A stretch of DNA of 64,000 nucleotides, from assembly GCA_026874595.1 (NCBI GenBank), contig CM049321.1, forward strand, positions 1,176,479 to 1,240,478, written 5' to 3'. The translations under genes and the position numbers were made by a program. Numbering within the stretch: position 1 is the first letter of the stretch; each line of letters starts with the position of its first letter. The stretch is from Sipunculus nudus (lineage: Eukaryota; Annelida; Sipuncula; Golfingiida; Sipunculidae). Shown piece after piece: positions 1 to 60,655 of the stretch. Under the pieces are notes generated by a model. That model did not search any database and was not told where the DNA came from. It saw only the letters and a list, made by a program, of their open reading frames with translations.

Positions 1-971
1 ATATTTTAAAAAAGTGTTTGCAAAGACATTAAACCTGTTCACAGAAATTTGTATAGGTTCCAGATTTTTATCTATTCGTACAAATACAGTAATAACCCGC
101 CTTGCGGCCACATCACAATTTTGACAAACCCATCATTACGAACACTTTTGTTAGTCCCGATTTTATGATCCAGGTTACTTAGAATTTTAAAAATACGACC
201 ACTCCTATATTATTTGGTCAGTCCCAAAGGTGGTCGTTATTATGCGGTTTCACTGTAGTTATATTCGTTAAATAGTGAATGTATATGTGATATACTTATG
301 AAGAATTTTGTCCCTGGTTATCTACCCCCTTTGAATGTTTTTCCCCTTGAAAAAGAAGGAGTTTCCTACATTACCAGACAAGAGCATTTATTAAAAACCC
401 AGGGAGTATACACAAATATTGAAATTTGAATCTGCAAATGAAAGAGAATAGCTTTGTAGTTTTGTGTTATCTACAGTTATTTGTTCTTCGGAGTTGTTTA
501 TATATTCTAGAGATATTTAAGAAACATGTAACTTACATCTCGCTTATTCTTTCAATAACTGCAACAAGTCATTTGATATTCAAAAATACCATTCTGTTTG
601 CAGAGACATTAACTCTGTTCACAAAAATGTGTATAGGTTCCCAATTTTTATCTATTCGTTCATATAAAGTGAAACCCCGCCGTAAGACCACCTTACAATT
701 GCGACCAACCAAGTACTCCTACCCCCATATTACGACCAATTTGGTCAGTTCCCAAGTTGTCCAAGTTTCCCACACCTTCCTTTAAATGTTTCTGCCCTCG
801 AAAAAAAGGGGTTTCCTACATCACCAGACAAAAGCATTTAATAACAACCTAGGAACAAAACTCATTTATAAACTACAAATAGAGTATAGTAGGCACAGTT
901 TATGTAAAAATAGGACAGGTATCTAAAGTAAAACTAAGCAAAGTTAATAGAACAACGGTTTCTCGTAGTAC

Positions 972-3900
972 CTATTTCAGCTTTTGTCAATGAGTGAAAT
1001 GTTTCTTCGGAACTTCCATGTGTAGACGGTGCTTCCGGTTCTGTTGTTGACATATGATTCACCATGACATCTGAGGGTTTTAATGAACTGTTTTCAAATG
1101 GATCTGAAGAGAGGTAATTGCATATCTTCACTACGATCGTCTAAATTTCTGTGGAATTGAAATATCTCAGCGTATTCACGAACGCAGGTTTAATAAGTAA
1201 AAGAGATTAAAAGGGATAAATCAATTTTTATTTCAAATACTTTAATTGCAGAGGGTGCTTGTTCATAACCCCAGATATTATAAATTCTATCTCTTTTCCC
1301 ATAGCCTTTGCTTTGAAGCCCAGCCACCAAGTGATATTTCAACATGATATGACAAAAAAAAATATATGTTTTTGACAAGTCAAATCACTTGTGATTGCTT
1401 ATGGTCACGGACAATCGGTCCAATTTTGGAATTTTACCCTATAGACATACCTGGTTAGTACTACAATCATAATATGCCTCTATGCCTAGCTATCGCTCAT
1501 AGGTATAGACCGACCATCATATAACTACCTATGATCAGTCTTTGAGAGCATGTAGCTCCAGTCACAAAATCTTAAAACCATTATGTAGGTTGACCGCTTA
1601 GAGGACTATCAAAAACTAGCAGGCGAGTTCACGGCACTCATCCGCTAATCACAAGTGTCACGATAACTTCCTAGAGGTTATATTTATAGATTACTCGAAA
1701 AAAATCCCTCATTCCTCAAGCATATGAAGAGGACTGGTCTACCAGTTCAACCAAAATAGCTCCTAATGATGAAATTAAAGTTGAAACAGGAACAGAGATG
1801 TCCTACTTCTGTGAAATTCCTTTAGAAAAGGGAAAAAGCAGTGAGCATGTAGCTCCAGTCACAAAAACTTAAAACCACTATGTAGGTTGACCGCTCGGAA
1901 GAGGCTATGAAAGGTGTTTTGGTTGCGTCAGCGTTCCGAGAAAGAATTTTAGGTGGCTCCTCGCGTTTATGTTTATACCCTTTGGTTAGAAAGGTTTGTT
2001 GTCCCATTGTCCTACGGCTAATTTAGCTAGAAGATTAAAAAGTGTTTCTCAGATGTGGACAACCATTCAAGGACCCATTGGTGAAACCTACCAGCCGTAT
2101 AAATACCACAACAAGTGACCCATGGTTCATGACGCTCAGCTGTAATTGACAAGTATACCTCTGAAGCATGTATCAATTATTGATTCTTTAATCTGGCAAA
2201 AAAATGATAAGTAACCCTGAACAATGGCTAGAATGACTTCTAGATGTTCAAAAACATGTTTTTTCATAGTTCTTGGTATATAGGTAACGGGGAAAAAGAT
2301 TTTACTGGGAACTCCCTAGATGCTAACTTAGAAGTTTCTATTTCACACTGCTATGACTTGTGTTCATCTGACTTATAGGGTACTAAAATCATGCTGTTTC
2401 ACACAATTCACAGCATACAGGTCACAGTGACCTTAATAACCGAGGACTTCCCTGGATTTCACATTAGAAGATTTTATGACTAACAGATCATCTGACCTAT
2501 GGGGTGCTCAAATATTATTTTTGCTATAGAGCACAGAATAAAGGTTTCAGTGACCTTATTTAATATCTCTAAGGGCTTCTAATTTAAGTCAGCATTACTT
2601 AATAATTTCTTAGATTTGCTAAGGACCTCCCTGGATGTACAGTTAGTAGGTTTTAGGTCTAACAGGATTAAATATATTTCCTGTGTTTTGACATAGTGCA
2701 TTATATTTGAGCCCATAACTTCAATAATTTAAGCAATAGTGACCTGATTTATTGTAAGTACATAGAAATATTATGCAGAATTTGTAATGTAAAACAAGAA
2801 TACAATTACCCCAGTGGTTTTTATAATGGGCAGTTTTGAAGTTAAAGAATAGGTTTGTACTGGAAAACGAAGGTTTTCGCCTAATTCCTCAAAGCAACGA
2901 AGTCGTAGTGACCGATTTGTGTATTGTGGTTTGGAAGGATAACTTGGGGACGTCTCACTGGATGTAAAATTTTAGATCCGTAGGTCCGACGGTTTCAAAA
3001 CGGGAACTGTTAACGGACGAACGGGCCGGACGGACAAAAGGAAAAGGACCATCCCTGTAGCTCAGATGACTTATTATCACCTGAGCTAAAAACACTCATG
3101 TTCAGTGAGTTGACGGGACATTTTGCCTGTCAAACAGAATTCTAGCCGATGAAAATGATAATAAACACAACCACCTCTTAAATCCGATAAAGTTTTTCAA
3201 AGGTCTTTTAAAACTTCCGGCTCTCACTGAGTGGTTAGCTAGTCGTAAAGTATGTGGGAACCAAATCTTTGCATGTTGTCACCGCTACTGTGTTAGCCAG
3301 GCAAAATTAAAAGCACGTCACGACAACCGCCTACTTTTTGTGACTAGTGGTAATTGCAGTTTAGGCGAGACAGTGCCTTAAAATGGTTAATAGCGACATT
3401 GCTCCTAAAAGGCTATTTTACTCTAAAAGATTTAGACAGTACATTAGATTGCGACAAATAAATTTTCTACTGTGCACAAAACATCAATAAAACAGTTACA
3501 AGACAAAGTACATGAACAATGAATGAATACTTACAATTAAAACATAAAACTGGGTGTTTTTCATCGCACAAGGCGGGTTCCCACATCACACCGTCGTTTA
3601 TGACAGACACCACTGCGCATGAGCCTCCATCATACCTGTGCCACCGGTAAGACCTTGCAATATCAGATTCTTCGGAGAAATATCCACATAATATAAACAT
3701 TTTACATAATATGTAAAATATATATGCATACATGTTTCTGAAGACGTTTGAAACATTCACATTTCCATATTCCAGTATGTTAACAACATTTATATCTGCC
3801 CCCGGGCTAAAATTTAAATCCCAAACCAGTAGGGTCAATAACAATAAATCACAATTTCAACTTTATTCTTTCATGTTACGTCTTATAAATAGTTGTGAAC

Positions 3901-4309
3901 TACTGTTTCCAGGGAACTGCGTCGTTTATACATATGTATCGTACAGCTAGGAAAAATTTAAACAAACTGATTGCAACAAATGATATTACGAACAAATGAA
4001 TAAATATTTCGAATTTTATAGTTAAACCAATAAATTTAATTTACATATTAGATCATGGAAAACTTACTTCCCCTAGGCAATAATAAATTCCATCTGGCTC
4101 TGGCTAACCCAATCCATACTTCTTTACAGTTTTCATTGGTAAGTGTTTTGTTCAATACGTGATCTGGCTGAACTGATAGCTTCATATTGTCCCTGAAGCA
4201 ACTTGAACTTGCGTCATACCAGTTCAGCTTTTTACAATGAATCGATAAGCAAACACCGCCGTAACACCGACCTGAGGGAAAACCCCCGCATCCTGAAGAA
4301 ACACATCCA

Positions 4310-4366
<57 letters not shown>

Positions 4367-5495
4367 TTATAAAATCGCACAAAATAATGGAAAAAATACA
4401 CAGCAGAGCTTTTCTTAGAATATGACATGAATGTTGATGAATTTAAAAAACGAAATAGCCCTTACCTTTTCTCTCGCAAATATATCCATCTACTCTTTTT
4501 GAACATTCTGTTGCATATAATCCCTACAGCCTCAGAGCAGCACAATCCATATTATTCCGCTCAGATCTTCTAATCTTATCTATGATAAGAAAAACTGAAA
4601 GTCTATATCATGTTGGGGTTAGTGATAAATCCTTAAAGACATCTAACATTTGGAAGAACAAAATCAAAATAAAAAATCTTTCTCCCGAATGAATCATTTA
4701 ACATACTATAATTAGTAAAATTTCTCATTCATTGCCATCATTTTTGTTTGTAATTTATTCAGTTCCAACTTTTTGCGCCTGATGCTTTGTTCAACGATTA
4801 TTTAAAGTCTCGATAGGGCATAAACTTAAATACCGCGTTTACACCCGTCAATATACGACTAAGGTTCTGTTTCCTCCCGTCGTAATCAAAGTTAAGGATA
4901 TTTGGTTATACCAGGCCATTCGGTAAAAAAAGACATATACAGTTCTTTATTGGTTGTATTTTGCCAGTTACAAAACTTTCCACCTTATCCCCTGTCAAAC
5001 ATTTTGACAACCGGCTATGTAGAGAATAAACCCAAATACCGTGTTTTCGCCCATCTATATATAACCATTGCTCTGTTTCCACACGCCGTAATCCAAACCA
5101 GGCTTTATTTAACCCAAGACTTCGCAATGTCTTCTGTATTTTACCAAGGTTTCCTCTCCCTTGTTCAATAGGCAGTAACTTCCCTTGCTCTTTGCATTTT
5201 CCGTGTGCTTTGCTAAATGTCTGTGAGGTACTTTCAAAAGTGTTGGCCCCTGAAATATATGGCAGAAAAGGTATGAAAGAAATTTAAAGCGAGAAAATTC
5301 AATTCTACACATTCAAAAAACGTCCGTGTATGCAATCAATCTTCCTGCAGCGAAATTAAACGAAACAGGACTGCAGCTTTTGTCTGTATGGTCAATATGT
5401 TTTATATAATATTCGTAAATTTTCTTACCAAGAATAATGTGGGTGGCGAAGACATATTTGAGACAGTACAGTAATAGAATAGCCCTTAGCAACAT
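972..5495 (-). CDS. Copy A: two-CTLD membrane receptor-like gene, 3' part off window
   Basis: Exons visible in transcription order are 5429-5495, 4984-5249, 4466-4523, 4068-4292, 3535-3669 and 972-1103. The transmembrane and tail exons lie left of the window. The signal peptide begins MLLRAILLLY, the form shared with copies F and G. Unlike every other copy, residue 135 in the cysteine-rich start of CTLD2 is Phe instead of Cys (text GCGGFPSG), so one of five closely spaced cysteines is lost. All four canonical CTLD1 cysteines (41, 106, 118, 127) and all four CTLD2 ones (162, 223, 240, 248) are kept. All six splice donors and acceptors are intact. See copy B for the full architecture. Confidence 0.75.
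1546..1598. repeat. Direct repeat in intron 5, left copy
   Basis: The text gagcatgtagctccagtcac to gttgaccgct recurs at 1843-1895 with few changes, 297 bases away, in each unit. Copy I shows one recognisable counterpart at about 61745. Confidence 0.7.
1843..1895. repeat. Direct repeat in intron 5, right copy
   Basis: Partner of 1546-1598; differs by aaaactt for aaatctt and ccactatg for ccattatg. Confidence 0.7.
2311..2760. repeat. Degenerate ~135-180-bp tandem repeats in intron 5
   Basis: Three diverged monomers begin near 2311 (actccctaga), 2446 (acttccctgg) and 2625 (acctccctgg). Each continues with a ttagaag/ttagtagg element and then an AGTGACCT element. Every array unit carries the same block. 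Confidence 0.6.
2419..2433. promoter_or_regulatory. Perfect AGGTCAnnnTGACCT palindrome in intron 5
   Basis: AGGTCACAGTGACCT is an exact inverted repeat with a 3-base spacer, the consensus arrangement for oestrogen-receptor-type nuclear receptors. It recurs unchanged in all eight units: 10520-10534, 18618-18632, 26713-26727, 34812-34826, 42905-42919, 50996-51010 and 58433-58447. Degenerate neighbours of the same minisatellite keep single TGACCT half-sites. The segment is absent from copy I. Function is unproven. Confidence 0.4.
3059..3087. repeat. Hairpin-forming inverted repeat
   Basis: AGCTCAGATGA and TCACCTGAGCT form an 11-bp stem with one mismatch around a 7-base loop. It lies beside a locally GC-rich stretch (acgggccggacggac) in intron 5 and occurs in every unit. 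Confidence 0.5.
4315..4363. repeat. (TA)n tract, intron 3, unit 1
   Basis: Pure dinucleotide run directly upstream of the exon 4 acceptor (21 bases away). Length varies between units, making it the fastest-changing site in the gene; read on either strand it produces artificial Ile-Tyr repeats. Confidence 0.95.
4815..4890 (-). pseudogene. Remnant of a second exon 2, in intron 2
   Basis: The plus-strand text taaataccgcgtttacaccc through cctcccgtcgtaatcaaagt resembles 5030-5098 inside real exon 2 (caaataccgtgttttcgccc). On the minus strand it reads roughly like the GLRRVETEQW region with frame damage. It resembles copy I exon 2 (cctcccgccgtaat) and shares its flank, so exon 2 was partly duplicated and the old half decayed. 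All full units carry it. Confidence 0.5.
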
Positions 5496-5943: not shown

Positions 5944-6076
5944 TCAGGAAAAGTGATATAATTTTGCATTATCGCAGTCATATTTATTGCAGTTTTTAGT
6001 ACATTTAAGGGGGTCGGTTTTACTGCGTATGTCTCTGTTCCTTTCAGTTACATGTTTCCTCTTCGGTGTCCCAGAC
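5944..6076 (-). CDS. Copy B exon 8: basic cytoplasmic tail and stop
   Basis: Acceptor catattctag|GTCTGG. With the phase-2 AG from exon 7 it reads RSGTPKRKHVTERNRDIRSK and continues through a Cys/Asn/Asp-rich end to TGA at 5946-5944. The tail is strongly basic next to the membrane. I see no ITAM/ITIM spacing of tyrosines. This copy has DPLK and ends in FS; copies C-F have DLFK and end in FC; copies G and H have DLFK and end in FS. A possible poly(A) signal ATTAAA follows at 5861-5866. Confidence 0.72.
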
Positions 6077-7565: not shown

Positions 7566-7624
<59 letters not shown>

Positions 7625-10600
7625 GTTAGAGCATAAGGTTAATAGGACATTATGAGGATTTTCTGCATGAAACCTGTCCCAGCAATATCTCAATTTCCTC
7701 TATTATCTACTTTCCTACCTCTGCCTTTTCCCGAGACAGCTTGTCAGAAAACATTCCAATAATGCAATCACAATAACTGATCCAGTGATACCGTTTAGGG
7801 CATAGATGATCAACCAATGAGAACCTAGAACGTAATAAACAAGAAAAATCCAGTTTTTCATGATCTATAGACGAAATATTGAAATTTGAATCTGGAATTA
7901 AAAAGAAAATAGCTTTGTGTTTCCTAGTTATGTTGTTCACCGGAGCTGTTTTTATATTCTAGAGATATTTAAGAAAAATGTAACATACGTTACGCTTATT
8001 CTTTCAATAACTGTACAAGTCATTTGATATTTTAAAAAAGTGTTTGCAAAGACATTAAACCTGTTCACAGAAATTTGTATAGGTTCCAGATTTTTATCTA
8101 TTCGTACAAATACAGTAATAACCCGCCTTGCGGCCACATCACAATTTTGACAAACCCATCATTACGAACACTTTTGTTAGTCCCGATTTTATGATCCAGG
8201 TTACTTAGAATTTTAAAAATACGACCACTCCTATATTATTTGGTCAGTCCCAAAGGTGGTCGTTATTATGCGGTTTCACTGTAGTTATATTCGTTAAATA
8301 GTGAATGTATATGTGATATACTTATGAAGAATTTTGTCCCTGGTTATCTACCCCCTTTGAATGTTTTTCCCCTTGAAAAAGAAGGAGTTTCCTACATTAC
8401 CAGACAAGAGCATTTATTAAAAACCTAGGGAGTATACACAAATATTGAAATTTGAATCTGCAAATGAAAGAGAATAGCTTTGTAGTTTTGTGTTATCTAC
8501 AGTTATTTGTTCTTCGGAGTTGTTTATATATTCTAGAGATATTTAAGAAACATGTAACTTACATCTCGCTTATTCTTTCAATAACTGTAACAAGTCATTT
8601 GATATTCAAAAATACCATTCTGTTTGCAGAGACATTAACTCTGTTCACAAAAATGTGTATAGGTTCCCAATTTTTATCTATTCGTTCATATAAAGTGAAA
8701 CCCCGCCGTAAGACCACCTTACAATTGCGACCAACCAAGTACTCCTACCCCCATATTACGACCAATTTGGTCAGTTCCCAAGTTTTTCGTTTTGGGGGAG
8801 TTCCACTGTACTTATTCTCGTGAAATAGTGAATGTATATGTGATATACTTATAGAGAATTTTGTCCCTGTTAACACCTTCCTTTAAATGTTTCTGCCCTC
8901 GAAAAAAAGGGGTTTCCTACATCACCAGACAAAAGCATTTAATAACAACCTAGGAACAAAACTCATTTATAAACTACAAATAGAGTATAGTAGGCACAGT
9001 TTATGTAAAAATAGGACAGGTATCTAAAGTAAAACTAAGCAAAGTTAATAGAACAACGGTTTCTCGTAGTACCTATTTCAGCTTTTGTCAATGAGTAAAA
9101 TGTTTCTTCGGAACTTCCATGTGTAGACGGTGCTTCCGGTTCTGTTGTTGACATATGATTCACCATGACATCTGAGGGTTTTAATGAACTGTTTTCAAAT
9201 GGATCTGAAGAGAGGTAATTGCATATCTTCACTACGATCGTCTAAATTTCTGTGGAATTGAAATATCTCAGCGTATTCACGAACGCAGGTTTAATAAGTA
9301 AAAGAGATTAAAAGGGATAAATCAATTTTTATTTCAAATACTTTAATTGCAGAGGGTGCTTGTTCATAACCCCAGATATTATAAATTCTATCTCTTTTCC
9401 CATAGCCTTTGCTTTGAAGCCCAGCCACCAAGTGATATTTCAACATGATATGACAAAAAAAAATATATGTTTTTGACAAGTCAAATCACTTGTGATTGCT
9501 TATGGTCACGGACAATCGGTCCAATTTTGGAATTTTACCCTATAGACATACCTGGTTAGTACTACAATCATAATATGCCTCTATGCCTAGCTATCGCTCA
9601 TAGGTATAGACCGACCATCATATAACTACCTATGATCAGTCTTTGAGAGCATGTAGCTCCAGTCACAAAATCTTAAAACCATTATGTAGGTTGACCGCTT
9701 AGAGGACTATCAAAAACTAGCAGGCGAGTTCACGGCACTCATCCGCTAATCACAAGTGTCACGATAACTTCCTAGAGGTTATATTTATAGATTACTCGAA
9801 AAAAATCCCTCATTCCACAAGCATATGAAGAGGACTGGTCTACCAGTTCAACCAAAATAGCTCCTAATGATGAAATTAAAGTTGAAACAGGAACAGAGAT
9901 GTCCTACTTCTGTGAAATTCCTTTAGAAAAGGGAAAAAGCAGTGAGCATGTAGCTCCAGTCACAAAAACTTAAAACCACTATGTAGGTTGACCGCTCGGA
10001 AGAGGCTATGAAAGGTGTTTTGGTTGCGTCAGCGTTCCGAGAAAGAATTTTAGGTGGCTCCTCGCGTTTATGTTTATACCCTTTGGTTAGAAAGGTTTGT
10101 TGTCCCATTGTCCTACGGCTAATTAAGCTAGAAGATTAAAAAGTGTTTCTCAGATGTGGACAACCATTCAAGGACCCATTGGTGAAACCTACCAGCCGTA
10201 TAAATACCACAACAAGTGACCCATGGTTCATGACGCTCAGCTGTAATTGACAAGTATACCTCTGAAGCATGTATCAATTATTGATTCTTTAATCTGGCAA
10301 AAAATTGATAAGTAACCCTGAACAATGGCTAGAATGACTTCTAGATGTTCAAAAACATGTTTTTTCATAGTTCTTGGTATATAGGTAACGGGGAAAAAGA
10401 TTTTACTGGGAACTCACTAGATGCTAACTTAGAAGTTTCTATTTCACACTGCTATGACTTGTGTTCATCTGACTTATAGGGTACTCAAATCATGCTGTTT
10501 CACACAATTCACAGCATACAGGTCACAGTGACCTTAATAACCGAGGACTTCCCTGGATTTCACATTAGAAGATTTTATGACTAACAGATCATCTGACCTA

Positions 10601-12407
10601 TGGGGTGCTCAAATATTATTTTTGCTATAGAGCACAGAATAAAGGTTTCAGTGACCTTATTTAATATCTCTAAGGGCTTCTAATTTAAGTCAGCATTACT
10701 TAATAATTTCTTAGATTTGCTAAGGACCTCCCTGGATGTACAGTTAGTAGGTTTTAGGTTTAACAGGATTAAATATATTTCCTGTGTTTTGACATAGTGC
10801 ATTATATTTGAGCCCATAACTTCAATAATTTAAGCAATAGTGACCTGATTTATTGTAAGTACATAGAAATATTATGCAGAATTTGTAATGTAAAACAAGA
10901 ATACAATTACCCCAGTGGTTTTTATAATGGGCAGTTTTGAAGTTAAAGAATAGGTTTGTACTGGAAAACGGAGGTTTTCGCCTAATTCCTCAAAGCAACG
11001 AAGTCGTAGTGACCGATTTGTGTATTGTGGTTTGGTAGGATAACTTGGGGACGTCTCACTGGATGTAAAATTTTAGATCCGTAGGTCCGACGGTTTCAAA
11101 ACGGGAACTGTTAACGGACGAACGGGCCGGACGGACAAAAGGAAAAGGATCATCCCTGTAGCTCAGATGACTTATTATCACCTGAGCTAAAAACACTCAT
11201 GTTCAGTGAGTTGACGGGACATTTTGCCTGTCAAACAGAATTCTAGCCGATGAAAATGATAATAAACACAACCACCTCTTAAATCCGATAAAGTTTTTCA
11301 AAGGTCTTTTAAAACTTCCGGCTCTCACTGAGTGGTTAGCTAGTCGTAAAGTATGTGGGAACCAAATCTTTGCATGTTGTCACCGCTACTGTGTTAGCCA
11401 GGCAAAATTAAAAGCACGTCACGACAACCGCCTACTTTTTGTGACTAGTCGTAATTGCAGTTTAGGCGAGACAGTGCCTTAAAGTGGTTAATAGCGACAT
11501 TGCTCCTAAAAGGCTATTTTACTCTAAAAGATTTAGACAGTACATTAGATTGCGACAAATAAATTTTCTACTGTGCACAAAACATCAATAAAACAGTTAC
11601 AAGACAAAGTACATGAACAATGAATGAATACTTACAATTAAAACATAAAACTGGGTGTTTTTCATCGCACAAGGCGGGTTCCCACATCACACCGTCGTTT
11701 ATGACAGACACCACTGCGCATGAGCCTCCATCATACCTGTGCCACCGGTAAGACCTTGCAATATCAGATTCTTCGGAGAAATATCCACATAATATAAACA
11801 TTTTACATAATATGTAAAATATATATGCATACATGTTTCTGAAGACGTTTGAAACATTCACATTTCCATATTCCAGTATGTTAACAACATTTATATCTGC
11901 CCCCGGGCTAAAATTTAAATCCCAAACCAGTAGGGTCAATAACAATAAATCACAATTTCAACTTTTCTTCTTTCATGTTACGTCTTATAAATAGTTGTGA
12001 ACTACTGTTTCCAGGGAACTTCGTCGTTTATACATATGTATCGTACAGCTAGGAAAAATTTAAACAGATTGCAACAAATGATATTACGAACAAATGAATA
12101 AATATTTCGAATTTTATAGTTAAACCAATAAATTTAATTTACATATTAGATCATGGAAAACTTACTTCCCCTAGGCAATAATAAATTCCATCTGGCTCTG
12201 GCTAACCCAATCCATACTTCTTTACAGTTTTCATTGGTAAGTGTTTTGTTCAATACGTGATCTGGCTGAACTGATAGCTTCATATTGTCCCTGAAGCAAC
12301 TTGAACTTGCGTCATACCAGTTCAGCTTTTTACAATGAATCGATAAGCAAACACCGCCGTAACACCGACCTGAGGGACAACCCCCGCATCCTGAAGAAAC
12401 GCATCCA

Positions 12408-12470
<63 letters not shown>

Positions 12471-13595
12471 TTATAAAATCGCACAAAATAATGGAAAAAA
12501 TACACAGCAGAGCTTTTCTTAGAATATGACATGAATGTTGATGAATTTATAAAAACGAAATAGCCCTTACCTTTTCTCTCGCAAATATATCCATCTACTC
12601 TTTTTGAACATTCTGTTGCACATAATCCCTACAGCCTCAGAGCAGCACAATCCATATTATTCCGCTCAGATCTTCTAATCTTATCTATGATAAGAAAAAC
12701 AAAGTCTATATCATGTTGGGGTTAGTGATAAATCCTTAAAGACATCTAACATTTGGAAGAACAAAATCAAAATAAAAAATCTTTCTCCCGAATGAATCAT
12801 TTAACATACTATAATTAGTAAAATTTCTCATTCATTGCCATCATTTTTGTTTGTAATTTAGTTCCAACTTTTTGCGCCTGATGCTTTGTTCAACTATTAT
12901 TTAAAGTCTCGATAGGGCATAAACTTAAATACCGCGTTTACACCCGTCAATATACGACTAAGGTTCTGTTTCCTCCCGTCGTAATCAAAGTTAAGGATAT
13001 TTGGTTATACCATGCCATTCGGTAAAAAAAGACATATACAGTTCTTTATTGGTTGTATTTTGCCAGTTACAAAACTTTCCACCTTATCCCCTGTCAAACA
13101 TTTTGACAACCGGCTATGTAGAGAATAAACCCAAATACCGTGTTTTCGCCCATCTATATATAACCATTGCTCTGTTTCCACACGCCGTAATCCAAACCAG
13201 GCTTTATTTAACCCAAGACTTCGCAATGTCTTCTGTATTTTACCAAGGTTTCCTCTCCCTTGTTCAATAGGCAGTAACTTCCCTTGCTCTTTGCATTTTC
13301 CGTGTGCTTTGCTAAATGTCTGTGAGGTACTTTCAAAAGTGTTGGCCCCTGAAATATATGGCAGAAAAGGTATGAAAGAAATTTAAAGCGAGAAAATTCA
13401 ATTCTACACATTCAAAAAAACGTCCGTGTATGCAATCAATCTTCCTGCAGCGAAATTAAACGAAACAGGACTGCAGCTTTTGTCTGTATGGTCAATATGT
13501 TTTATATAATATTCGTAAATTTTCTTACCAAGAATAATGTGGGTGGCGAAGACATATTTGAGACAGTACAGTGATAGAATAGCCCTTAGCACCAT
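5944..13595 (-). CDS. Copy B: complete signal peptide-CTLD1-CTLD2-stalk-TM-tail gene
   Basis: Exons are 13529-13595, 13083-13348, 12571-12628, 12166-12390, 11636-11770, 9073-9204, 7719-7864 and 5944-6076; the stop is at 5944-5946. Their lengths (67, 266, 58, 225, 135, 132, 146, 133) predict about 387 residues: signal peptide 1 to ~18, CTLD1 ~30-130, CTLD2 ~131-250, stalk 251-294, hydrophobic segment ~300-339, basic tail 340-387. The CTLD signatures FSKAHGKC/AWFGL and WYDASSSC/VWIGL and four canonical cysteines per domain are present. No WND-type calcium/sugar site is visible, so ligand binding is probably not classical carbohydrate recognition. Sequons are N178 (NKT) and N255 (NSS). Private changes: Y114C in CTLD1, H-to-Y in the stalk, and DPLK in the tail where other copies have DLFK. 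Phase fits at every junction except exon 6-7. A surface receptor or adhesion role is inferred from architecture only. Confidence 0.8.
7568..7622. repeat. (TA)n tract, intron 7, unit 1
   Basis: A second independent dinucleotide run, about 100 bases downstream of the transmembrane exon on the minus strand; 55 bases here. Confidence 0.95.
7719..7864 (-). CDS. Copy B exon 7: transmembrane segment
   Basis: Acceptor ttcgtctatag|ATCATG, donor GGCAGAG|GTAGGA. In one frame it encodes a long hydrophobic run containing SHWLIIYALNGITGSVIVIA and LLECFLTSCLGKRQR, a membrane span followed by a basic stop-transfer cluster, ending in phase 2, which joins exactly to exon 8. The relative at 60656-60785 conserves this frame (LIIYTLVGFIGSVI) with several third-position synonymous changes. 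The entry phase expected from exon 6 is one base off; in that register the exon is also open but hydrophilic. Confidence 0.65.
7872..8960. repeat. Internal 566-bp tandem duplication in intron 6
   Basis: Two diverged copies, about 7872-8437 and 8438-8960, align through attgaaatttgaatct, ctagagatatttaagaaa, ctttcaataactgt and tgaatgtatatgtgatatac. Both copies hold an acceptor-like site before ATTCAAATTTC on the minus strand. The duplication is present in units 2-7 at the equivalent place; unit 1 shows its right half with a ~70-bp deletion near 755, and unit 8 has lost about 0.66 kb across it. Copy I has a single counterpart. Confidence 0.75.
9073..9204 (-). CDS. Copy B exon 6: Ser/Thr-rich stalk
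   Basis: Acceptor ctcttcag|ATCCATT and donor GAAATAG|GTACTA, phase 1 at both ends. It encodes residues 252-294, rich in Ser, Thr, Pro and Glu (MSTTEPEAPSTHGSSEE), with one N-glycosylation sequon NSS. This looks like an extended, probably O-glycosylated stalk between CTLD2 and the membrane. The diverged relative at 61301-61418 keeps the same frame and both splice sites (QMTTTEADATST). Confidence 0.7.
11636..11770 (-). CDS. Copy B exon 5: CTLD2 C-terminus
   Basis: The acceptor ttctccgaag|AATCTG and donor TTAATT|GTAAGT bound 135 bases encoding residues 207-250, with RWHRYDGGSC, MWEPALCDE and PVLCFN supplying the last three canonical CTLD cysteines (223, 240, 248). Trp235 sits where the WND motif would be, but the Asn-Asp pair is absent. 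The encoded residues are identical in all eight array copies. An alternative acceptor 12 bases downstream (gcaag|GTC) breaks the phase and is disfavoured. Confidence 0.75.
12166..12390 (-). CDS. Copy B exon 4: cysteine-rich start and first half of CTLD2
   Basis: The acceptor tttcttcag|GATGCG lies just beyond the (TA)n tract and the donor is GGGGAA|GTAAGT. The exon encodes residues 131-206. Five cysteines (132, 135, 140, 145, 150) precede the CTLD helix NWYDASSSC; then come a sequon NKT, an extra Cys186 and VWIGL. Extra N-terminal cysteines resemble long-form CTLDs, which carry an additional disulfide. Phase 1 at both ends. Confidence 0.78.
12413..12467. repeat. (TA)n tract, intron 3, unit 2
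   Basis: 55 bases. Confidence 0.95.
12571..12628 (-). CDS. Copy B exon 3: CTLD1 C-terminus
   Basis: This 58-base exon is too short to stand out as an ORF. Between ctgtag| and AAAAG|GTAAGG it encodes 19 residues ending CSKRVDGYICERK, the classic closing strand of a CTLD, with two cysteines at 118 and 127. Copy B reads GLCATEC where the other copies read GLYATEC, which adds an unpaired cysteine. It enters in phase 0 and leaves in phase 1, matching both neighbours. Confidence 0.75.
13083..13348 (-). CDS. Copy B exon 2: first part of CTLD1
   Basis: The acceptor is tatttcag|GGGCC and the donor GATAAG|GTGGAA. The exon enters in phase 1 and leaves in phase 0. It encodes residues 23-111, including FSKAHGKC (the WxxAxxxC helix of the fold, with Phe for Trp), AWFGLRR (equivalent of WIGL), QWLYIDG, and the third-strand cysteine in KCLTG. 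The donor is the least certain edge; it is supported because phase 0 joins exactly to exon 3. Confidence 0.72.
13529..13595 (-). CDS. Copy B exon 1: signal peptide
   Basis: The 22 codons begin MVLRAILSLYCLKYVFATHI, a short basic n-region, a hydrophobic core and a likely cleavage after the Ala of VFA. The ATG has AAA before it, a good initiation context, and I prefer it over the in-frame upstream ATG of a longer ORF because only this start puts the hydrophobic core at the N-terminus. The donor is CTTG|GTAAGA, phase 1. Confidence 0.75.
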
Positions 13596-15666: not shown

Positions 15667-15721
<55 letters not shown>

Positions 15722-20505: not shown

Positions 20506-20572
<67 letters not shown>

Positions 20573-23768: not shown

Positions 23769-23817
<49 letters not shown>

Positions 23818-28600: not shown

Positions 28601-28661
<61 letters not shown>

Positions 28662-31857: not shown

Positions 31858-31916
<59 letters not shown>

Positions 31917-36699: not shown

Positions 36700-36762
<63 letters not shown>

Positions 36763-39958: not shown

Positions 39959-40009
<51 letters not shown>

Positions 40010-44792: not shown

Positions 44793-44859
<67 letters not shown>

Positions 44860-48055: not shown

Positions 48056-48100
<45 letters not shown>

Positions 48101-51100
48101 GTTAGAGCATAAGGTTAATAGGACATTATGAGGATTTTCTGCATGAAACCTGTCCCAGCAATATCTCAATTTCCTCTATTATCTACTTTCCTACCTCTGC
48201 CTTTTCCCGAGACAGCTTGTCAGAAAACATTCCAATAATGCAATCACAATAACTGATCCAGTGATACCGTTTAGGGCATAGATGATCAACCAATGAGAAC
48301 CTAGAACGTAATAAACAAGAAAAATCCAGTTTTTCATGATCTATAGACGAAATATTGAAATTTGAATCTGGAATTAAAAAGAAAATAGCTTTGTGTTTCC
48401 TAGTTATTTTGTTCACCGGAGCTGTTTTTATATTCTAGAGATATTTAAGAAAAATGTAACATACGTTACGCTTATTCTTTCAATAACTGTACAAGTCATT
48501 TGATATTTTAAAAAAGTGTTTGCAAAGACATTAAACCTGTTCACAGAAATTTGTATAGGTTCCAGATTTTTATCTATTCGTACAAATACAGTAATAACCC
48601 GCCTTGCGGCCACATCACAATTTTGACAAACCCATCATTACGAACACTTTTGTTAGTCCCGATTTTATGATCCTGGTTACTTAGAATTTTAAAAATACGA
48701 CCACTCCTATATTATTTGGTCAGTCCCAAAGGTGGTCGTTATTATGCGGTTTCACTGTAGTTATATTCGTTAAATAGTGAATGTATATGTGATATACTTA
48801 TGAAGAATTTTGTCCCTGGTTATCTACCCCCTTTGAATGTTTTTCCCCTTGAAAAAGAAGGAGTTTCCTACATTACCAGACAAGAGCATTTATTAAAAAC
48901 CTAGGGAGTATACACAAATATTGAAATTTGAATCTGCAAATGAAAGAGAATAGCTTTGTAGTTTTGTATTATCTACAGTTATTTGTTCTTCGGAGTTGTT
49001 TATATATTCTAGAGATATTTAAGAAACATGTAACTTACATCTCGCTTATTCTTTCAATAACTGTAACAAGTCATTTGATATTCAAAAATACAATTCTGTT
49101 TGCAGAGACATTAACTCTGTTCACAAAAATGTGTATAGGTTCCCAATTTTTATCTATTCGTTCATATAAAGTGAAACCCCGCCGTAAGACCACCTTACAA
49201 TTGCGACCAACCAAGTACTCCTACCCCCATATTACGACCAATTTGGTCAGTTCCCAAGTTGTTCGTTTTGGGGGAGTTCCACTGTACTTATTCTCGTGAA
49301 ATAGTGAATGTATATGTGATATACTTATAGAGAATTTTGTCCCTGTTAACACCTTCCTTTAAATGTTTCTGCCCTCGAAAAAAGGGGTTTCCTACATCAC
49401 CAGACAAAAGCATTTAATAACAACCTAGGAACAAAACTCATTTATAAACTACAAATAGAGTATAGTAGGCACAGTTTATGTAAAAATAGGACAGGTATCT
49501 AAAGTAAAACTAAGCAAAGTTAATTGAACAACGGTTTCTCGTAGTACCTATTTCAGCTTTTGTCAATGAGTGAAATGTTTCTTCGGAACTTCCATGTGTA
49601 GACGGTGCTTCCGGTTCTGTTGTTGACATATGATTCACCATGACATCTGAGGGTTTTAATGAACTGTTTTCAAATGGATCTTAAGGGAGGTAATTGCATA
49701 TCTTCACTACGATCGTCTACATTTCTGTGGAATTGAAATATCTCAGCGTATTCACGAACGCAGGTTTAATAAGTAAAAGAGATTAAAAGGGATAAATCAA
49801 TTTTTATTTCAAATACTTTAATTGCAGAGGGTGCTTGTTCATAACCCCAGATATTATAAATTCTATCTCTTTTCCCATAGCCTTTGCTTTGAAGCCCAGC
49901 CACCAAGTGATATTTCAACATGATATGACAAAAAAAAATATATGTTTTTGACAAGTCAAATCACTTGTGATTGCTTATGGTCACGGACAATCGGTCCAAT
50001 TTTGGAATTTTACCCTATAGACATACCTGGTTAGTACTACAATCATAATATGCCTCTATGCCTAGCTATCGCTCATAGGTATAGACCGACCATCATATAA
50101 CTACCTATGATCAGTCTTTGAGAGCATGTAGCTCCAGTCACAAAATCTTAAAACCATTATGTAGGTTGACCGCTTAGAGGACTATCAAAAACTAGCAGGC
50201 GAGTTCACGGCACTCATCCGCTAATCACAAGTGTCACGATAACTTCCTAGAGGTTATATTTATAGATTACTCGAAAAAAAATCCCTCATTCCACAAGCAT
50301 ATGAAGAGGACTGGTCTACCAGTTCAACCAAAATAGCTCCTAATGATGAAATTAAAGTTGAAACAGGAACAGAGATGTCCTACTTCTGTGAAATTCCTTT
50401 AGAAAAGGGAGAAAGCAGTGAGCATGTAGCTCCAGTCACAAAAACTTAAAACCACTATGTAGGTTGACCGCTCGGAAGAGGCTATGAAAGGTGTTTTGGT
50501 TGCGTCAGCGTTCCGAGAAAGAATTTTAGGTGGCTCCTCGCGTTTATGTTTATACCCTTTGGTTAGAAAGGTTTGTTGTCCCATTGTCCTACGGCTAATT
50601 AAGCTAGAAGATTAAAAAGTGTTTCTCAGATGTGGACAACCATTCAAGGACCCATTGGTGAAACCTACCAGCCGTATAAATACCACAACAAGTGACCCAT
50701 GGTTCATGACGCTCAGCTGTAATTGACAAGTATACCTCTGAAGCATGTATCAATTATTGATTCTTTAATCTGGCAAAAAATTGATAAGTAACCCTGAACA
50801 ATGGCTAGAATGACTTCTAGATGTTCAAAAACATGTTTTTTCATAGTTCTTGGTATATAGGTAACGGGGAAAAAGATTTTACTGGGAACTCACTAGATGC
50901 TAACTTAGAAGTTTCTATTTCACACTGCTATGACTTGTGTTCATCTGACTTATAGGGTACTCAAATCATGCTGTTTCACACAATTCACAGCATACAGGTC
51001 ACAGTGACCTTAATAACCGAGGACTTCCCTGGATTTCACATTAGAAGATTTTATGACTAACAGATCATCTGACCTATGGGGTGCTCAAATATTATTTTTG

Positions 51101-52883
51101 CTAAAGAGCACAGAATAAAGGTTTCAGTGACCTTATTTAATATCTCTAAGGGCTTCTAATTTAAGTCAGCATTACTTAATAATTTCTTAGATTTGCTAAG
51201 GACCTCCCTGGATGTACAGTTAGTAGGTTTTAGGTTTAACAGGATTAAATATATTTCCTGTGTTTTGACATAGTGCATTATATTTGAGCCCATAACTTCA
51301 ATAATTTAAGCAATAGTGACCTGATTTATTGTAAGTACATAGAAATATTATGCAGAATTTGTAATGTAAAACAAGAATACAATTACCCCAGTGGTTTTTA
51401 TAATGGGCAGTTTTGAAGTTAAAGAATAGGTTTGTACTGGAAAACGGAGGTTTTCGCCTAATTCCTCAAAGCAACGAAGTCGTAGTGACCGATTTGTGTA
51501 TTGTGGTTTGGTAGGATAACTTGGGGACGTCTCATTGGATGTAAAATTTTAGATCCGTAGGTCCGACGGTTTCAAAACGGGAACTGTTAACGGACGAACG
51601 GGCCGGACGGACAAAAGGAAAAGGACCATCCCTGTAGCTCAGATGACTTATTATCACCTGAGCTAAAAACACTCATGTTCAGTGAGTTGACGGGACATTT
51701 TGCCTGTCAAACAGAATTCTAGCCGATGAAAATGATAATAAACACAACCACCTCTTAAATCCGATAAAGTTTTTCAAAGGTCTTTTAAAACTTCCGGCTC
51801 TCACTGAGTGGTTAGCTAGTCGTAAAGTATGTGGGAACCAAATCTTTGCATGTTGTCACCGCTACTGTGTTAGCCAGGCAAAATTAAAAGCACGTCACGA
51901 CAACCGCCTACTTTTTGTGACTAGTCGTAATTGCAGTTAAGGCGAGACAGTGCCTTAAAATGGTTAATAGCGACATTGCTCCTAAAAGGCTATTTTACTC
52001 TAAAAGATTTAGACAGTACATTAGATTGCGACAAATAAATTTTCTACTGTGCACAAAACATCAATAAAACAGTTACAAGACAAAGTACATGAACAATGAA
52101 TGAATACTTACAATTAAAACATAAAACTGGGTGTTTTTCATCGCACAAGGCGGGTTCCCACATCACACCGTCGTTTATGACAGACACCACTGCGCAGGAG
52201 CCTCCATCATACCTGTGCCACCGGTAAGACCTTGCAATATCAGATTCTTCGGAGAAATATCCACATAATATAAACATTTTACATAATATGTAAAATATAT
52301 ATGCATACATGTTTCTGAAGACGTTTGAAACATTCACATTTCCATATTCCAGTATGTTAACAACATTTATATCTGCCCCCGGGCTAAAATTTAAATCCCA
52401 AACCAGTAGGGTCAATAACAATAAATCACAATTTCAACTTTTCTTCTTTCATGTTACGTCTTATAAATAGTTGTGAACTACTGTTTCCAGGGAACTTCGT
52501 CGTTTATACATATGTATCGTACAGCTAGGAAAAATTTAAACAGATTGCAACAAATGATATTACGAACAAATGAATAAATATTTCGAATTTTATAGTTAAA
52601 CCAATAAATTTAATTTACATATTAGATCATGGAAAACTTACTTCCCCTAGGCAATAATAAATTCCATCTGGCTCTGGCTAACCCAATCCATACTTCTTTA
52701 CAGTTTTCATTGGTAAGTGTTTTGTTCAATACGTGATCTGGCTGAACTGATAGCTTCATATTGTCCCTGAAGCAACTTGAACTTGCGTCATACCAGTTCA
52801 GCTTTTTACAATGAATCGATAAGCAAACACCGCCGTAACACCGACCTGAGGGACAACCCCCGCATCCTGAAGAAACACATCCA

Positions 52884-52958
<75 letters not shown>

Positions 52959-54083
52959 TTATAAAATCGCACAAAATAATGGAAAAAATACACAGCAGAG
53001 CTTTTCTTAGAATATGTCATGAATGTTGATGAATTTATAAAAACGAAATAGCCCTTACCTTTTCTCTCGCAAATATATCCATCTACTCTTTTTGAACATT
53101 CTGTTGCATATAATCCCTACAGCCTCAGAGCAGCACAATCCATATTATTCCGCTCAGATCTTCTAATCTTATCTATGATAAGAAAAACAAAGTCTATATC
53201 ATGTTGGGGTTAGTGATAAATCCTTAAAGACATCTAACATTTGGAAGAACAAAATCAAAATAAAAAATCTTTCTCCTGAATGAATCATTTAACATACTAT
53301 AATTAGTAAAATTTCTCATTCATTGCCATCATTTTTGTTTGTAATTTAGTTCCAACTTTTTGCGCCTGATGCTTTGTTCAACGATTATTTAAAGTCTCGA
53401 TAGGGCATAAACTTAAATACCGCGTTTACACCCGTCAATATACGACTAAGGTTCTGTTTCCTCCCGTCGTAATCAAAGTTAAGGATATTTGGTTATACCA
53501 TGCCATTCGGTAAAAAAAGACATATACAGTTCTTTATTGGTTGTATTTTGCCAGTTACAAAACTTTCCACCTTATCCCCTGTCAAACATTTTGACAACCG
53601 GCTATGTAGAGAATAAACCCAAATACCGTGTTTTCGCCCATCTATATATAACCATTGCTCTGTTTCCACACGCCGTAATCCAAACCAGGCTTTATTTAAC
53701 CCAAGACTTCGCAATGTCTTCTGTATTTTACCAAGGTTTCCTCTCCCTTGTTCAATAGGCAGTAACTTCCCTTGCTCTTTGCATTTTCCGTGTGCTTTGC
53801 TAAATGTCTGTGAGGTACTTTCAAAAGTGTTGGCCCCTGAAATATATGGCAGAAAAGGTATGAAAGAAATTTAAAGCGAGAAAATTCAATTCTACACATT
53901 CAAAAAAACGTCCGTGTATGCAATCAATCTTCCTGCAGCGAAATTAAACGAAACAGGACTGCAGCTTTTGTCTGTATGGTCAATATGTTTTATATAATAT
54001 TCGTAAATTTTCTTACCAAGAATAATGTGGGTGGCGAAGACATATTTGAGACAGTACAGTAATAGAATAGCCCTTAGCAACAT
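46432..54083 (-). CDS. Copy G: two-CTLD gene with altered stalk acceptor
   Basis: Exons are 54017-54083, 53571-53836, 53059-53116, 52642-52866, 52112-52246, 49548-49679, 48195-48340 and 46432-46564. Signal peptide form MLLRAILLLY; tail DLFK ending FS. It shares with copy F the cccttaag acceptor for the stalk exon and a cluster of intron variants, so the two units descend from a recent common unit. It has the longest intron-3 (TA)n tract in the window (52889-52955). It is the last copy on the right with all eight exons. Confidence 0.74.
48060..48099. repeat. (TA)n tract, intron 7, unit 6
   Basis: 40 bases, the shortest. Confidence 0.95.
52889..52955. repeat. (TA)n tract, intron 3, unit 7
   Basis: 67 bases, the longest intron 3 tract. 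Confidence 0.95.
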
Positions 54084-54529
54084 TTTTATAAAGAATGATG
54101 GCGTGGTCAGAGAGAAAAAGGAAGTAACGAATATATATACAGCTTTAATATATATGAGGTTAACGTCCGGGTGTAAAGATAAACGACACCCTATCAAAAC
54201 CAGCATAATAACTCGGGTAGCCAAAAAAAGGATAATAGGGAAATTATCTACATATTAGCATTATTTACATTTTCATTAGGTCCAACTTTAGAGAAAATAA
54301 CCAATGATGGAATGATTATATAAACTATATTGTTTCTGGATAATTGTTTTATAAAATATCAATCTTGTCAAATCAATAAAGAAACTTCATCTATATTGAT
54401 GTCACAAGTTCACGTGATATTTAAAAGAAAGATGTTCTTAACATATTTTAATCCGGACGAAAAATGTCCATATCCTGTCACTGAAAACTACTTTGACTAT
54501 TCTGTTAGGAAAACATGCGATAATCAACA
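54084..54529 (-). promoter_or_regulatory. Intergenic spacer G/H
   Basis: Equivalent spacer in unit 7, promoter of copy G. The poly-A run near 54355 is shortened compared with other units. Confidence 0.38.
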
Positions 54530-56153
54530 TCAGGAAAAGTGATATAATTTTGCATTATCGCAGTCATATTTATTGCAGTTTTTAGTACATTTAAAGAGGT
54601 CGGTTTTACTGCGTATGTCTCTGTTCCTTTCAGTTACATGTTTCCTCTTCGGTGTCCCAGACCTAGAATATGATAAAAAACATAAAAACCAAAATTGTAT
54701 ATTGTTCTTTGATTTTCGTCCCGTTTGATAATATTTAATAGTACTGCTGAAACGCAACCTTAAACGTGTTTTATTTAAATTTAAGGATGTAGTGTTAACC
54801 CATTGGGGATTACATAATATTATGACCGTGATTGACCGTGAGAATAACCTCCACTCTCAGTTACGAAAATTATAAAATACAGAACGACATGTCTAAACCT
54901 AACAGGTTTAGCTTCATGAAAAGTATATTTGGCAATGATGAGACGGGTAACCAAACAAAGATACCAATGATTTCTTAATATATCAAAGTTATGTTATAAG
55001 TATTGTTACATGTTTAACGGGTAAATCCCTATTTCTTATATCAGTTATCTCAGCTAATCAGTTATAACCCAACTCTGGCAATATAATATAGTATAATACA
55101 AAGCAACAGAAAATAAAATACCATTACTTCCTCGTATGAAATAATGTACAAATAACATATGATGACAGAAACAAATACTGAGAAAAGATAACCTCAGGTA
55201 AATTATTTGAAGCTGTGTTTTCCTAACTATCTTGCTTTCCTAGTCACTCGTGTAAACCAAGTTAGTTACCGCTATCAAGTGCCCAGGGGATCAATTTATC
55301 ACGTTTATCTTTTCGGAAAGTGTCAGCTCTCTGACAGACAAATGGCGATGTTGGAGGCTTCCGATTGAGAGTAAACAACTATTATTGTTGAGGAATGGGT
55401 TTTACTCAATGCTTCTGAAGCGTTGACATTTATGGACTAGGTGATGTCTAACATCAGCATATGTTCAGTCATGAATAAGTAGAGATTATAATGAGTACAG
55501 AGTACAAAACGAGGTCCAAAAGTATCAGGATATATGATGTAGGGTGTGCTTAGCCACAATGTGCAGGGAGGGTAAAAAAATCTCCTTGTAAAAGGAAGTC
55601 GGAATTATAGCCATGTCAAATAGACATATTTATATCAACAACAATAATATATTAAGTGATAAAGGAAGTCACTAAAATTCTTGAGCATTTTCAAGTGAAA
55701 TACTTGCAAATGTCGTAACATCTTGAAAGACATGGTCTATTTCTACGAAACTGAAGTGCTTCCAAAAATATATAATTTAAAATGGTGATATCTGTACGAC
55801 AACATTAATATCAAACATATTATATTCAGTAAACTTAACAAAAGCTTAAGCTTTGTGTGCAAAAGTACCATCTTGTACATGTTTTGTACCTCCGTTTTCT
55901 TCTGACAGCTTCTTTAAATAATCGGGTAAGATTTGTTCTTAAGCATTCTGAATTAGTTTAATTCATAATAGTTACATTCGTCCATCAGGATCTGATCGAT
56001 CTATGAACTAGATTTATTTGTTAACCGTACACCAAACAAAAATATCTTACGGTCCAGGCTGTGTTGTCGGTGAAATGTAAATATAAAGAGGGCACTTTAG
56101 CAGAATGCTCAAGTATGCTATCCTAAGATTAGGAAATCGATATGACTTATGAT

Positions 56154-56204
<51 letters not shown>

Positions 56205-59200
56205 GTTAGAGCATAAGGTTAATAGGACATTATGAGGATTTTCTGCATGAAACCTGTCCCAGCAATATCTCAATTTCCTCTATTATCTACTTTCCTACCT
56301 CTGCCTTTTCCCGAGACAGCTTGTCAGAAAACATTCCAATAATGCAATCACAATAACTGATCCAGTGATACCGTTTAGGGCATAGATGATCAACCAATGA
56401 GAACCTAGAACGTAATAAACAAGAAAAATCCAGTTTTTCATGATCTATAGACGAAATATTGAAATTTGAATCTGGAATTAAAAAGAAAATAGCTTTGTGT
56501 TTCCTAGTTATGTTGTTCACCGGAGCTGTTTTTATATTCTAGAGATATTTAAGAAAAATGTAACATACGTTACGCTTATTCTTTCAATAACTGTACAAGT
56601 CATTTGATATTTTAAAAAAGTGTTTGCAAAGACATTAAACCTGTTCACAGAAATTTGTATAGGTTCCAGATTTTTATCTATTTATGGTCAGTTCCCAAGT
56701 TGTTCGTTTTGGGGGAGTTCCACTGTTCCACTGTACTTATTCTCGTGAAATAGTGAATGTATATGTGATATACTTATAGAGAATTTTGTCCCTGTTAACA
56801 CCTTCCTTTAAATGTTTCTGCCCTCGAAAAAAGGGGTTTCCTACATCACCAGACAAAAGCATTTAATAACAACCTAGGAACAAAACTCATTTATAAACTA
56901 CAAATAGAGTATAGTAGGCACAGTTTATGTAAAAATAGGACAGGTATCTAAAGTAAAACTAAGCAAAGTTAATTGAACAACGGTTTCTCGTAGTACCTAT
57001 TTCAGCTTTTGTCAATGAGTGAAATGTTTCTTCGGAACTTCCATGTGTAGACGGTGCTTCCGGTTCTGTTGTTGACATATGATTCACCATGACATCTGAG
57101 GGTTTTAATGAACTGTTTTCAAATGGATCTGAAGAGAGGTAATTGCATATCTTCACTACGATCGTCTACATTTCTGTGGAATTGAAATATCTCAGCGTAT
57201 TCACGAACGCAGGTTTAATAAGTAAAAGAGATTAAAAGGGATAAATCAATTTTTATTTCAAATACTTTAATTGCAGAGGGTGCTTGTTCATAACCCCAGA
57301 TATTATAAATTCTATCTCTTTTCCCATAGCCTTTGCTTTGAAGCCCAGCCACCAAGTGATATTTCAACATGATATGACAAAAAAAAATATATGTTTTTGA
57401 CAAGTCAAATCACTTGTGATTGCTTATGGTCACGGACAATCGGTCCAATTTTGGAATTTTACCCTATAGACATACCTGGTTAGTACTACAATCATAATAT
57501 GCCTCTATGCCTAGCTATCGCTCATAGGTATAGACCGACCATCATATAACTACCTATGATCAGTCTTTGAGAGCATGTAGCTCCAGTCACAAAATCTTAA
57601 AACCATTATGTAGGTTGACCGCTTAGAGGACTATCAAAAACTAGCAGGCGAGTTCACGGCACTCATCCGCTAATCACAAGTGTCACGATAACTTCCTAGA
57701 GGTTATATTTATAGATTACTCGAAAAAAATCCCTCATTCCACAAGCATATGAAGAGGACTGGTCTACCAGTTCAACCAAAATAGCTCCTAATGATGAAAT
57801 TAAAGTTGAAACAGGAACAGAGATGTCCTACTTCTGTGAAATTCCTTTAGAAAAGGGAAAAAGCAGTGAGCATGTAGCTCCAGTCACAAAAACTTAAAAC
57901 CACTATGTAGGTTGACCGCTCGGAAGAGGCTATGAAAGGTGTTTTGGTTACGAGAAAGAATTTTAGGTGGCTCCTCGCGTTTATGTTTATACCCTTTGGT
58001 TAGAAAGGTTTGTTGTCCCATTGTCCTACGGCTAATTAAGCTAGAAGATTAAAAAGTGTTTCTCAGATGTGGACAACCATTCAAGGACCCATTGGTGAAA
58101 CCTACCAGCCGTATAAATACCACAACAAGTGACCCATGGTTCATGACGCTCAGCTGTAATTGACAAGTGTACCTCTGAAGCATGTATCAATTATTGATTC
58201 TTTAATCTGGCAAAAAATTGATAAGTAACCCTGAACAATGGCTAGAATGACTTCTAGATGTTCAAAAACATGTTTTTTCATAGTTCTTGGTATATAGGTA
58301 ACGGGGAAAAAGATTTTACTGGGAACTCACTAGATGCTAACTTAGAAGTTTCTATTTCACACTGCTATGACTTGTGTTCATCTGACTTATAGGGTACTCA
58401 AATCATGCTGTTTCACACAATTCACAGCATACAGGTCACAGTGACCTTAATAACCGAGGACTTCCCTGGATTTCACATTAGAAGATTTTATGACTAACAG
58501 ATCATCTGACCTATGGGGTGCTCAAATATTATTTTTGCTAAAGAGCACAGAATAAAGGTTTCAGTGACCTTATTTAATATCTCTAAGGGCTTCTAATTTA
58601 AGTCAGCATTACTTAATAATTTCTTAGATTTGCTAAGGACCTCCCTGGATGTACAGTTAGTAGGTTTTAGGTTTAACAGGATTAAATATATTTCCTGTGT
58701 TTTGACATAGTGCATTATATTTGAGCCCATAACTTCAATAATTTAAGCAATAGTGACCTGATTTATTGTAAGTACATAGAAATATTATGCAGAATTTGTA
58801 ATGTAAAACAAGAATACAATTACCCCAGTGGTTTTTATAATGGGCAGTTTTGAAGTTAAAGAATAGGTTTGTACTGGAAAACGGAGGTTTTCGCCTAATT
58901 CCTCAAAGCAACGAAGTCGTAGTGACCGATTTGTGTATTGTGGTTGGGTAGGATAACTTGGGGACGTCTCACTGGATGTAAAATTTTAGATCCGTAGGTC
59001 CGACGGTTTCAAAACGGGAACTGTTAACGGACGAACGGGCCGGACGGACAAAAGGAAAAGGACCATCCCTGTAGCTCAGATGACTTATTATCACCTGAGC
59101 TAAAAACACTCATGTTCAGTGAGTTGACGGGACATTTTGCCTGTCAAACAGAATTCTAGCCGATGAAAATGATAATAAACACAACCACCTCTTAAATCCG

Positions 59201-59683
59201 ATAAAGTTTTTCAAAGGTCTTTTAAAACTTCCGGCTCTCACTGAGTGGTTAGCTAGTCGTAAAGTATGTGGGAACCAAATCTTTGCATGTTGTCACCGCT
59301 ACTGTGTTAGCCAGGCAAAATTAAAAGCACGTCACGACAACCGCCTACTTTTTGTGACTAGTCGTAATTGCAGTTAAGGCGAGACAGTGCCTTAAAATGG
59401 TTAATAGCGACATTGCTCCTAAAAGGCTATTTTACTCTAAAAGATTTAGACAGTACATTAGATTGCGACAAATAAATTTTCTACTGTGCACAAAACATCA
59501 ATAAAACAGTTACAAGACAAAGTACATGAACAATGAATGAATACTTACAATTAAAACATAAAACTGGGTGTTTTTCATCGCACAAGGCGGGTTCCCACAT
59601 CACACCGTCGTTTATGACAGACACCACTGCGCAGGAGCCTCCATCATACCTGTGCCACCGGTAAGACCTTGCAATATCAGATT
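54530..59683 (-). pseudogene. Copy H: 5'-truncated copy, exons 5-8 only
   Basis: Exons 59549-59683, 56997-57128, 56299-56444 and 54530-54662 are present with good splice sites, including the normal ctcttcag stalk acceptor. The unit breaks off at 59907 in the intron upstream of exon 5, so exons 1-4, the signal peptide, CTLD1 and the promoter are missing. The intron between exons 6 and 7 lacks about 0.66 kb, removing most of one internal duplicate near 56681. Unless transcription enters from the diverged relative to the right, this is a dead fragment; read-through could make a chimeric transcript. Confidence 0.75.
56158..56202. repeat. (TA)n tract, intron 7, unit 7
   Basis: 45 bases, in the intron of truncated copy H. 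Confidence 0.95.
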
Positions 59684-59907
59684 CTTCGGAGAAATATCCA
59701 CATAATATAAACATTTTACATAATATGTAAAATATATATGCATACATGTTTCTGAAGACGTTTGAAACATTCACATTTCCATATTCCAGTATGTTAACAA
59801 CATTTATATCTGCCCCCGGGCTAAAATTTAAATCCCAAACCAGTAGGGTGAATAACAATAAATCACAATTTCAACTTTTCTTCTTTCATGTTACGTCTTA
59901 TAAATAG

Positions 59908-60523: not shown

Positions 60524-60655
60524 ATCGATCTGACTAGTGATATTGGTATATTTTATTAATGAGCATGGCGTAATCTTACAGGACATTAGGGGATTTTCTG
60601 AACTTAACCCTTACCCAGATATAGATCAGTTATCCCTAAATATAAACTTCCCTAC

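Follow-up and report, generated by a model that had tools for sequence, protein, structure and literature searches.

A tandem array of near-identical C-type-lectin-like receptor copies with a common premature stop, probably duplicated pseudogenes, beside one open gene in Sipunculus nudus

Arrays of duplicated (unprocessed) pseudogenes arise by unequal crossing over. In bivalves, the text of a recent report describes the C-type lectin-like (CTL) families as lineage-specific, with about 200 CTLs, and as many as 300-500, in many bivalves, and records their signal peptides, transmembrane (TM) domains and number of C-type-lectin-like domains (CTLDs) (Saco et al. 2023, PMC10140915). The locus analyzed here holds seven full copies and one fragment of a CTLD receptor gene, and we consider it quite probable that these are duplicated pseudogenes, that is, amplified copies of a stopped and tail-less gene, lying beside one open gene that we call gA. 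No earlier report of this array was found in literature text searches.

The window, meaning the whole stretch of 64,000 nucleotides analyzed, corresponds to C16 (CM049321.1):1176479-1240478, so that a C16 position equals 1176478 plus the window position and values below 1 lie to the left of the window. It was read together with 80 kb on either side (224 kb), in an assembly of 1.43 Gb and 153 contigs where C16 accounts for 63.5 Mb. Self-comparison confirmed what an earlier note on this DNA had claimed, namely seven near-identical repeat units of about 8.1 kb; these lie head-to-tail on the minus strand together with a shorter eighth, at a start-to-start spacing of 8091-8101 bases (8101, 8098, 8095, 8099, 8093, 8091) and then a shorter 7437. 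The right end of the array is exact at 59907/59908 and the left end lies outside the window, at about window -1074 (C16:1175404), with a locus order on C16 of gA, P, g1-g8 (the array copies), P' and gZ. Also in agreement with the note, no other gene was seen in the repeat on looking at open reading frames (ORFs), tandem repeats and exon homology. Beside the TM exon, a stretch of about 560 bp is present as a tandem double (7866-8429 and 8433-8954, about 73% identity) and occurs at the same place in the other units; this is an older duplication within the units. Elsewhere in the assembly, long oxidase frames that are open in the standard code were seen in C60, C61, C62, C66, C72, C74, C75, C89 and C123; judged by its translation, the one on C123 appears to be a cbb3-type bacterial oxidase, and the assembly seems to hold contigs of a bacterial symbiont or contaminant.

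The repeated gene encodes a type I receptor that contains two CTLDs. According to an exon model based on homology, splice sites and phase, the order on the minus strand is signal peptide (SP), CTLD1 in two exons (C1a, C1b), CTLD2 in two exons (C2a, C2b), stalk and TM, with phase 1 at all junctions up to the TM exon, which ends in phase 2. Exons 1-7 are present in all of g1-g7, flanked throughout by GT and AG. In g2 (7719..13595) they are SP 13529-13595, C1a 13139-13348, C1b 12571-12684, C2a 12166-12390, C2b 11636-11770, stalk 9073-9204 and TM 7719-7824; in g1, whose in-window part is 1..5495, they are SP 5429-5495, C1a 5040-5249, C1b 4466-4579, C2a 4068-4292, C2b 3535-3669 and stalk 972-1103, with the TM exon (C16:1176171-1176276) and a native tail exon (C16:1174845-1174992) to the left of the window. 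From SP to TM exon, g3 spans 15816..21697, g4 23912..29786, g5 32011..37887, g6 40104..45984 and g7 48195..54083. The eighth copy (about 55538..59908, also on the minus strand) is a 5'-truncated fragment that matches the C2b, stalk and TM exons only, as a search by exon homology gave no match for its first four exons; it has lost about 0.67 kb internally, at about 56682/56685, and ends abruptly against P', an older diverged paralogue, part of which occupies 59909..64000 on the minus strand. ORFs at 937-1134 and their repeats (VVKICNY...), considered as the C-terminus, were replaced by the stalk exon, for which an acceptor and a phase-1 donor were found.

The spliced gA protein matches Lectin_C (PF00059) over two stretches (E 8.3e-12, 46.2 bits, cut-off 22.6). 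Among pieces from the window, the joined CTLD2 scores 24.6 bits and the first half of CTLD1 alone 14.2, which is below the cut-off. Sequence comparison with the PDB gives weak relatives, NKG2-D at E 8.1e-06 and flavocetin-A at 1.7e-04. Hydropathy peaks at residue 299 (2.24 in g3 and 2.88 in gA) and the N-terminus is hydrophobic, a profile that, on hydropathy only, is that of a single-pass protein with a signal peptide. The Ca- and sugar-binding motifs EPN/QPD and WND were not seen by eye in either CTLD in the translations of g1-g7 and gA; members of the wider CTLD fold need not bind sugar.

The open gene gA lies 11 kb to the left of the window (C16:1158495-1165263, minus strand), with a coding sequence of 1335 nt in 8 exons, one terminal stop and 444 amino acids, and, across the 224 kb analyzed, it is the only copy that was found with an open eight-exon frame. 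The other neighbors are damaged by stops or by the loss of splice sites: gZ, to the right of the window, has lost its signal-peptide donor and carries a stop at a different place and a deletion in C1b, and stops interrupt exon-like parts of P and P', which are about 95% alike. Compared with the array, gA is far more diverged in its TM exon than in the remaining ones, and the gA tail is similar to the broken remnant of a tail at about window -32.4 kb, so that gA may be a chimera to which two lineages contributed. Another contig possibly holds a second tandem CTLD array: four CTLD matches of near-equal score, all weak (E about 0.002, 27% identity), are found at C17:54760407-54794657, about 10.9, 10.9 and 12.2 kb apart.

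In all seven full copies, codon 111 is an in-frame TAG; it lies in the third exon, C1b, which closes CTLD1. The context is CTG TAG GGA in g1-g7 versus CTG GTG GGA in both gA and gZ, which indicates that TAG is the derived state, and because the most distant unit, g1, has it as well, the stop would be older than the amplification. The codon was read directly at 12629..12631 in g2 and calculated manually, counting from the starts of the exons, in the other copies (4524-4526 in g1, 20731-20733 in g3, 28820-28822 in g4, 36921-36923 in g5, 45018-45020 in g6 and 53117-53119 in g7, all on the minus strand). No further stop or frameshift was found in exons 1-7 of any of these copies. An acceptor at the TAG itself (ctgtag/GG) was also considered and rejected, as its phase does not fit the neighboring exons and the frame, followed by hand, closes soon after.

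To examine coding constraint, the 46 exon differences between gA and g3 were polarized with gZ, itself broken, as outgroup. Leaving aside the TM exon, which was set apart because the 3' end of gA looks like another lineage, the array lineage shows 11 nonsynonymous (N) and 3 synonymous (S) changes plus two stop-codon changes, matching neutral expectation (binomial P=1.0), and the gA branch 3 N and 6 S, departing from it (P=0.005). On these sequences, the changes of the array lineage look neutral and those of gA constrained, although a Fisher test gives no significant difference between lineages (P=0.077, or 0.087 without two signal-peptide changes confined to g2-g5). The TM exon alone holds 2 N in the array and 13 N and 6 S in gA, and its inclusion gives 13:3 in the array versus 16:12 in gA (Fisher P=0.185; gA branch P=0.011). 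Within the array, the exon changes number seven; six are nonsynonymous, and in two a cysteine is lost, once in g1 and once in g4, where codon 41, a CTLD1 cysteine elsewhere, encodes Tyr. Some of this evidence tells against a reading of the copies as pseudogenes, and so do the otherwise intact exons 1-7 and splice sites of all seven: the N:S contrast falls short of significance and leans on a broken outgroup, exons are no more conserved than introns between gA and g3 (46/989 versus 127/4300, with 21 of the 46 in the TM exon), and whole-gene dN/dS between gA and single array copies, with both branches mixed, is 0.43-0.53, implying some constraint somewhere between gA and the array.

A further point against the pseudogene reading is that C1a and C1b, 210 and 114 bases long, both start and end in phase 1, so that skipping of exon 3, or of exons 2 and 3, would preserve the frame. 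If such skipping occurred, the array could encode a shortened, tail-less decoy of the gA receptor with a single CTLD (or one and a half), and a read-through past the TM donor would indeed meet an immediate stop (...CAG AGG TAG) and thus leave a very short tail. The C2a protein is also identical in six of the seven copies, but such identity is expected from the youth of the array alone, and the neutral look of the array-lineage changes and the cysteine missing from g1 and from g4 argue against a maintained product, making this alternative an unlikely one. More doubtful again is its bolder form, where the stop and the lost tail would not be mere decay, and the tail-less unit would serve as an exon-skipped, single-CTLD decoy of gA with a dose that depends on the length of the array.

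A related cytoplasmic exon lies behind TGCAG, 3' of the TM exon, in gA, g1 and gZ, and is phase-matched in gA and g1; the native tail measures 115 residues, with several tyrosines, in gA, and 49 residues in g1. This exon is absent from the remaining six of the seven copies (g2-g7). One common breakpoint is found at all seven unit joins, falling after the TM exon and before the lost tail exon at 15051..15052 and, in the other repeats, at about 6950, 23153, 31242, 39343, 47440 and 55538. There, the joins depart from the sequence shared by g1 and gZ at the point where ...cacaccctac meets ATCATATATCC, and similarity to the 5' flank of gA begins, by eye, within about a base of the breakpoint. Given this position between TM and tail exons, g2-g7 would have lost the tail exon at the founding event.

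These findings bear on the suggestion that every unit holds a whole eight-exon gene and that the array could change receptor dose. An eighth exon can in fact be drawn for g2 at 5944..6076 (minus strand), in the 5' flank of g1, as it is phase-compatible, has an acceptor (ttctag) and closes with a stop, and the repeats of this candidate have their first bases at 14175, 22277, 30366, 38467, 46564 and 54662. Such a 44-codon open stretch, drawable in units 2-7, may be the eighth exon that the earlier note had in mind. It is, however, the 5' flank of the next copy, its equivalent is also found upstream of gA, where it is open, and upstream of gZ, where the acceptor is broken and the frame shifted, and at E<=1 neither of the older paralogues, P and P', gave it a protein match. 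We rejected the eight-exon model because the tail exon retained in gA and g1 is another one, phase-matched and with a relative in gZ, and because the drawn exon is broken in gZ. The near identity of the seven units and the preservation of their exons 1-7 and splice sites speak for an array of complete, dose-varying receptor genes, but this is improbable, even more so than the decoy in either form: the stop interrupts all seven copies, six lack the native cytoplasmic exon, and g8 is a fragment. Unless the frame is rescued by exon skipping, the array is unlikely to affect receptor dose. As a kind of repeat it is ordinary, and the earlier reading of it was too generous.

Pairwise substitutions among g1-g7 amount to 0.02-0.62%, with 0.02-0.42% among g2-g7 and 0.46-0.62% between g1 and these, compared to 5.1-5.3% between g1-g7 and gA over the aligned unit, and 4.9% between g8 and gA. 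The closest pairs include neighbors (g3-g4, 2/8089 substitutions; g6-g7, 12/8089). In ungapped columns of g1-g7, 7 of the 989 exon bases are variable, as are 42 of the 4,932 intron columns and 10 positions in the remainder of the unit, which makes 59 sites. Exons are hence not clearly more conserved than introns inside the array, and this near equality, along with the near-identical neighbors, bears out the proposal that the array is either of recent origin or homogenized by exchange. Shared variants unite g6 and g7 at 11 sites and g3 and g4 at 2, and 19 of 190 pairs fail the four-gamete test (20 informative sites, from an input list that includes one singleton site), all through two sites, which fits either a few exchanges or conversion events between neighbors or repeat mutation at these sites. 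Variation in copy number between individuals would be plausible, judging from this one assembly. That the assembler multiplied one or two real units is, despite their near identity, the least credible explanation, as no two units were identical among the pairs compared, the pair of AT-microsatellite lengths (40-67 bases) is distinct in each of the seven, the variable sites mostly follow a nested pattern, and the units sit inside a contig of 63.5 Mb, where alone, among the candidates scored, a unit probe found a match.

We therefore return to duplicated pseudogenes as the best explanation. The copies retain their introns and have a disabling lesion in common, none of the seven has an open frame, and the full set of exons is not found in each copy; a common stop, together with a tail missing from six of seven, suggests that a broken gene was copied again and again, and not that working receptors are kept in store. 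The process probably started with a two-CTLD type I receptor gene that already had a nonsense codon in its third exon, the stop having arisen before or at the duplication. A founding tandem duplication, with one breakpoint 5' of the signal-peptide exon and the other after the TM exon but before the cytoplasmic-tail exon, would then have deprived all copies but the terminal g1 of the tail exon. Unequal crossing over and/or conversion probably amplified and homogenized the truncated unit afterwards to seven copies and one fragment, and we infer that protein function has been lost in the array.

Such a locus has implications for annotation, as near-perfect repeats can mislead, and seven clean-looking genes could be counted as an immune-gene expansion in spite of their common stop. 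An open gA beside an array that shares its sequence also offers a small natural test of whether such arrays can vary in number and leave receptor dose unchanged, and the common breakpoint at which the tail exon was lost marks a single founding event, which could be dated in relatives.

Like the bivalve CTL families, this genome has many CTLD genes, with a CTLD2 half-exon found at no fewer than 149 places genome-wide (150 of 379 candidates scored), 11 of them at this locus and the best match outside it, among the candidates scored, being 34% identical. Unlike here, no comparable array was found in the text of the bivalve report, and the word pseudogene is absent from its main text (PMC10140915). 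The retained introns, the common lesion, the near-identical tandem units and the fragment at one end are all features of pseudogene arrays produced by unequal crossing over. Where this array differs from them is in a lesion that is present in all units and would be older than the amplification, and in a founding breakpoint that itself removed the last exon.
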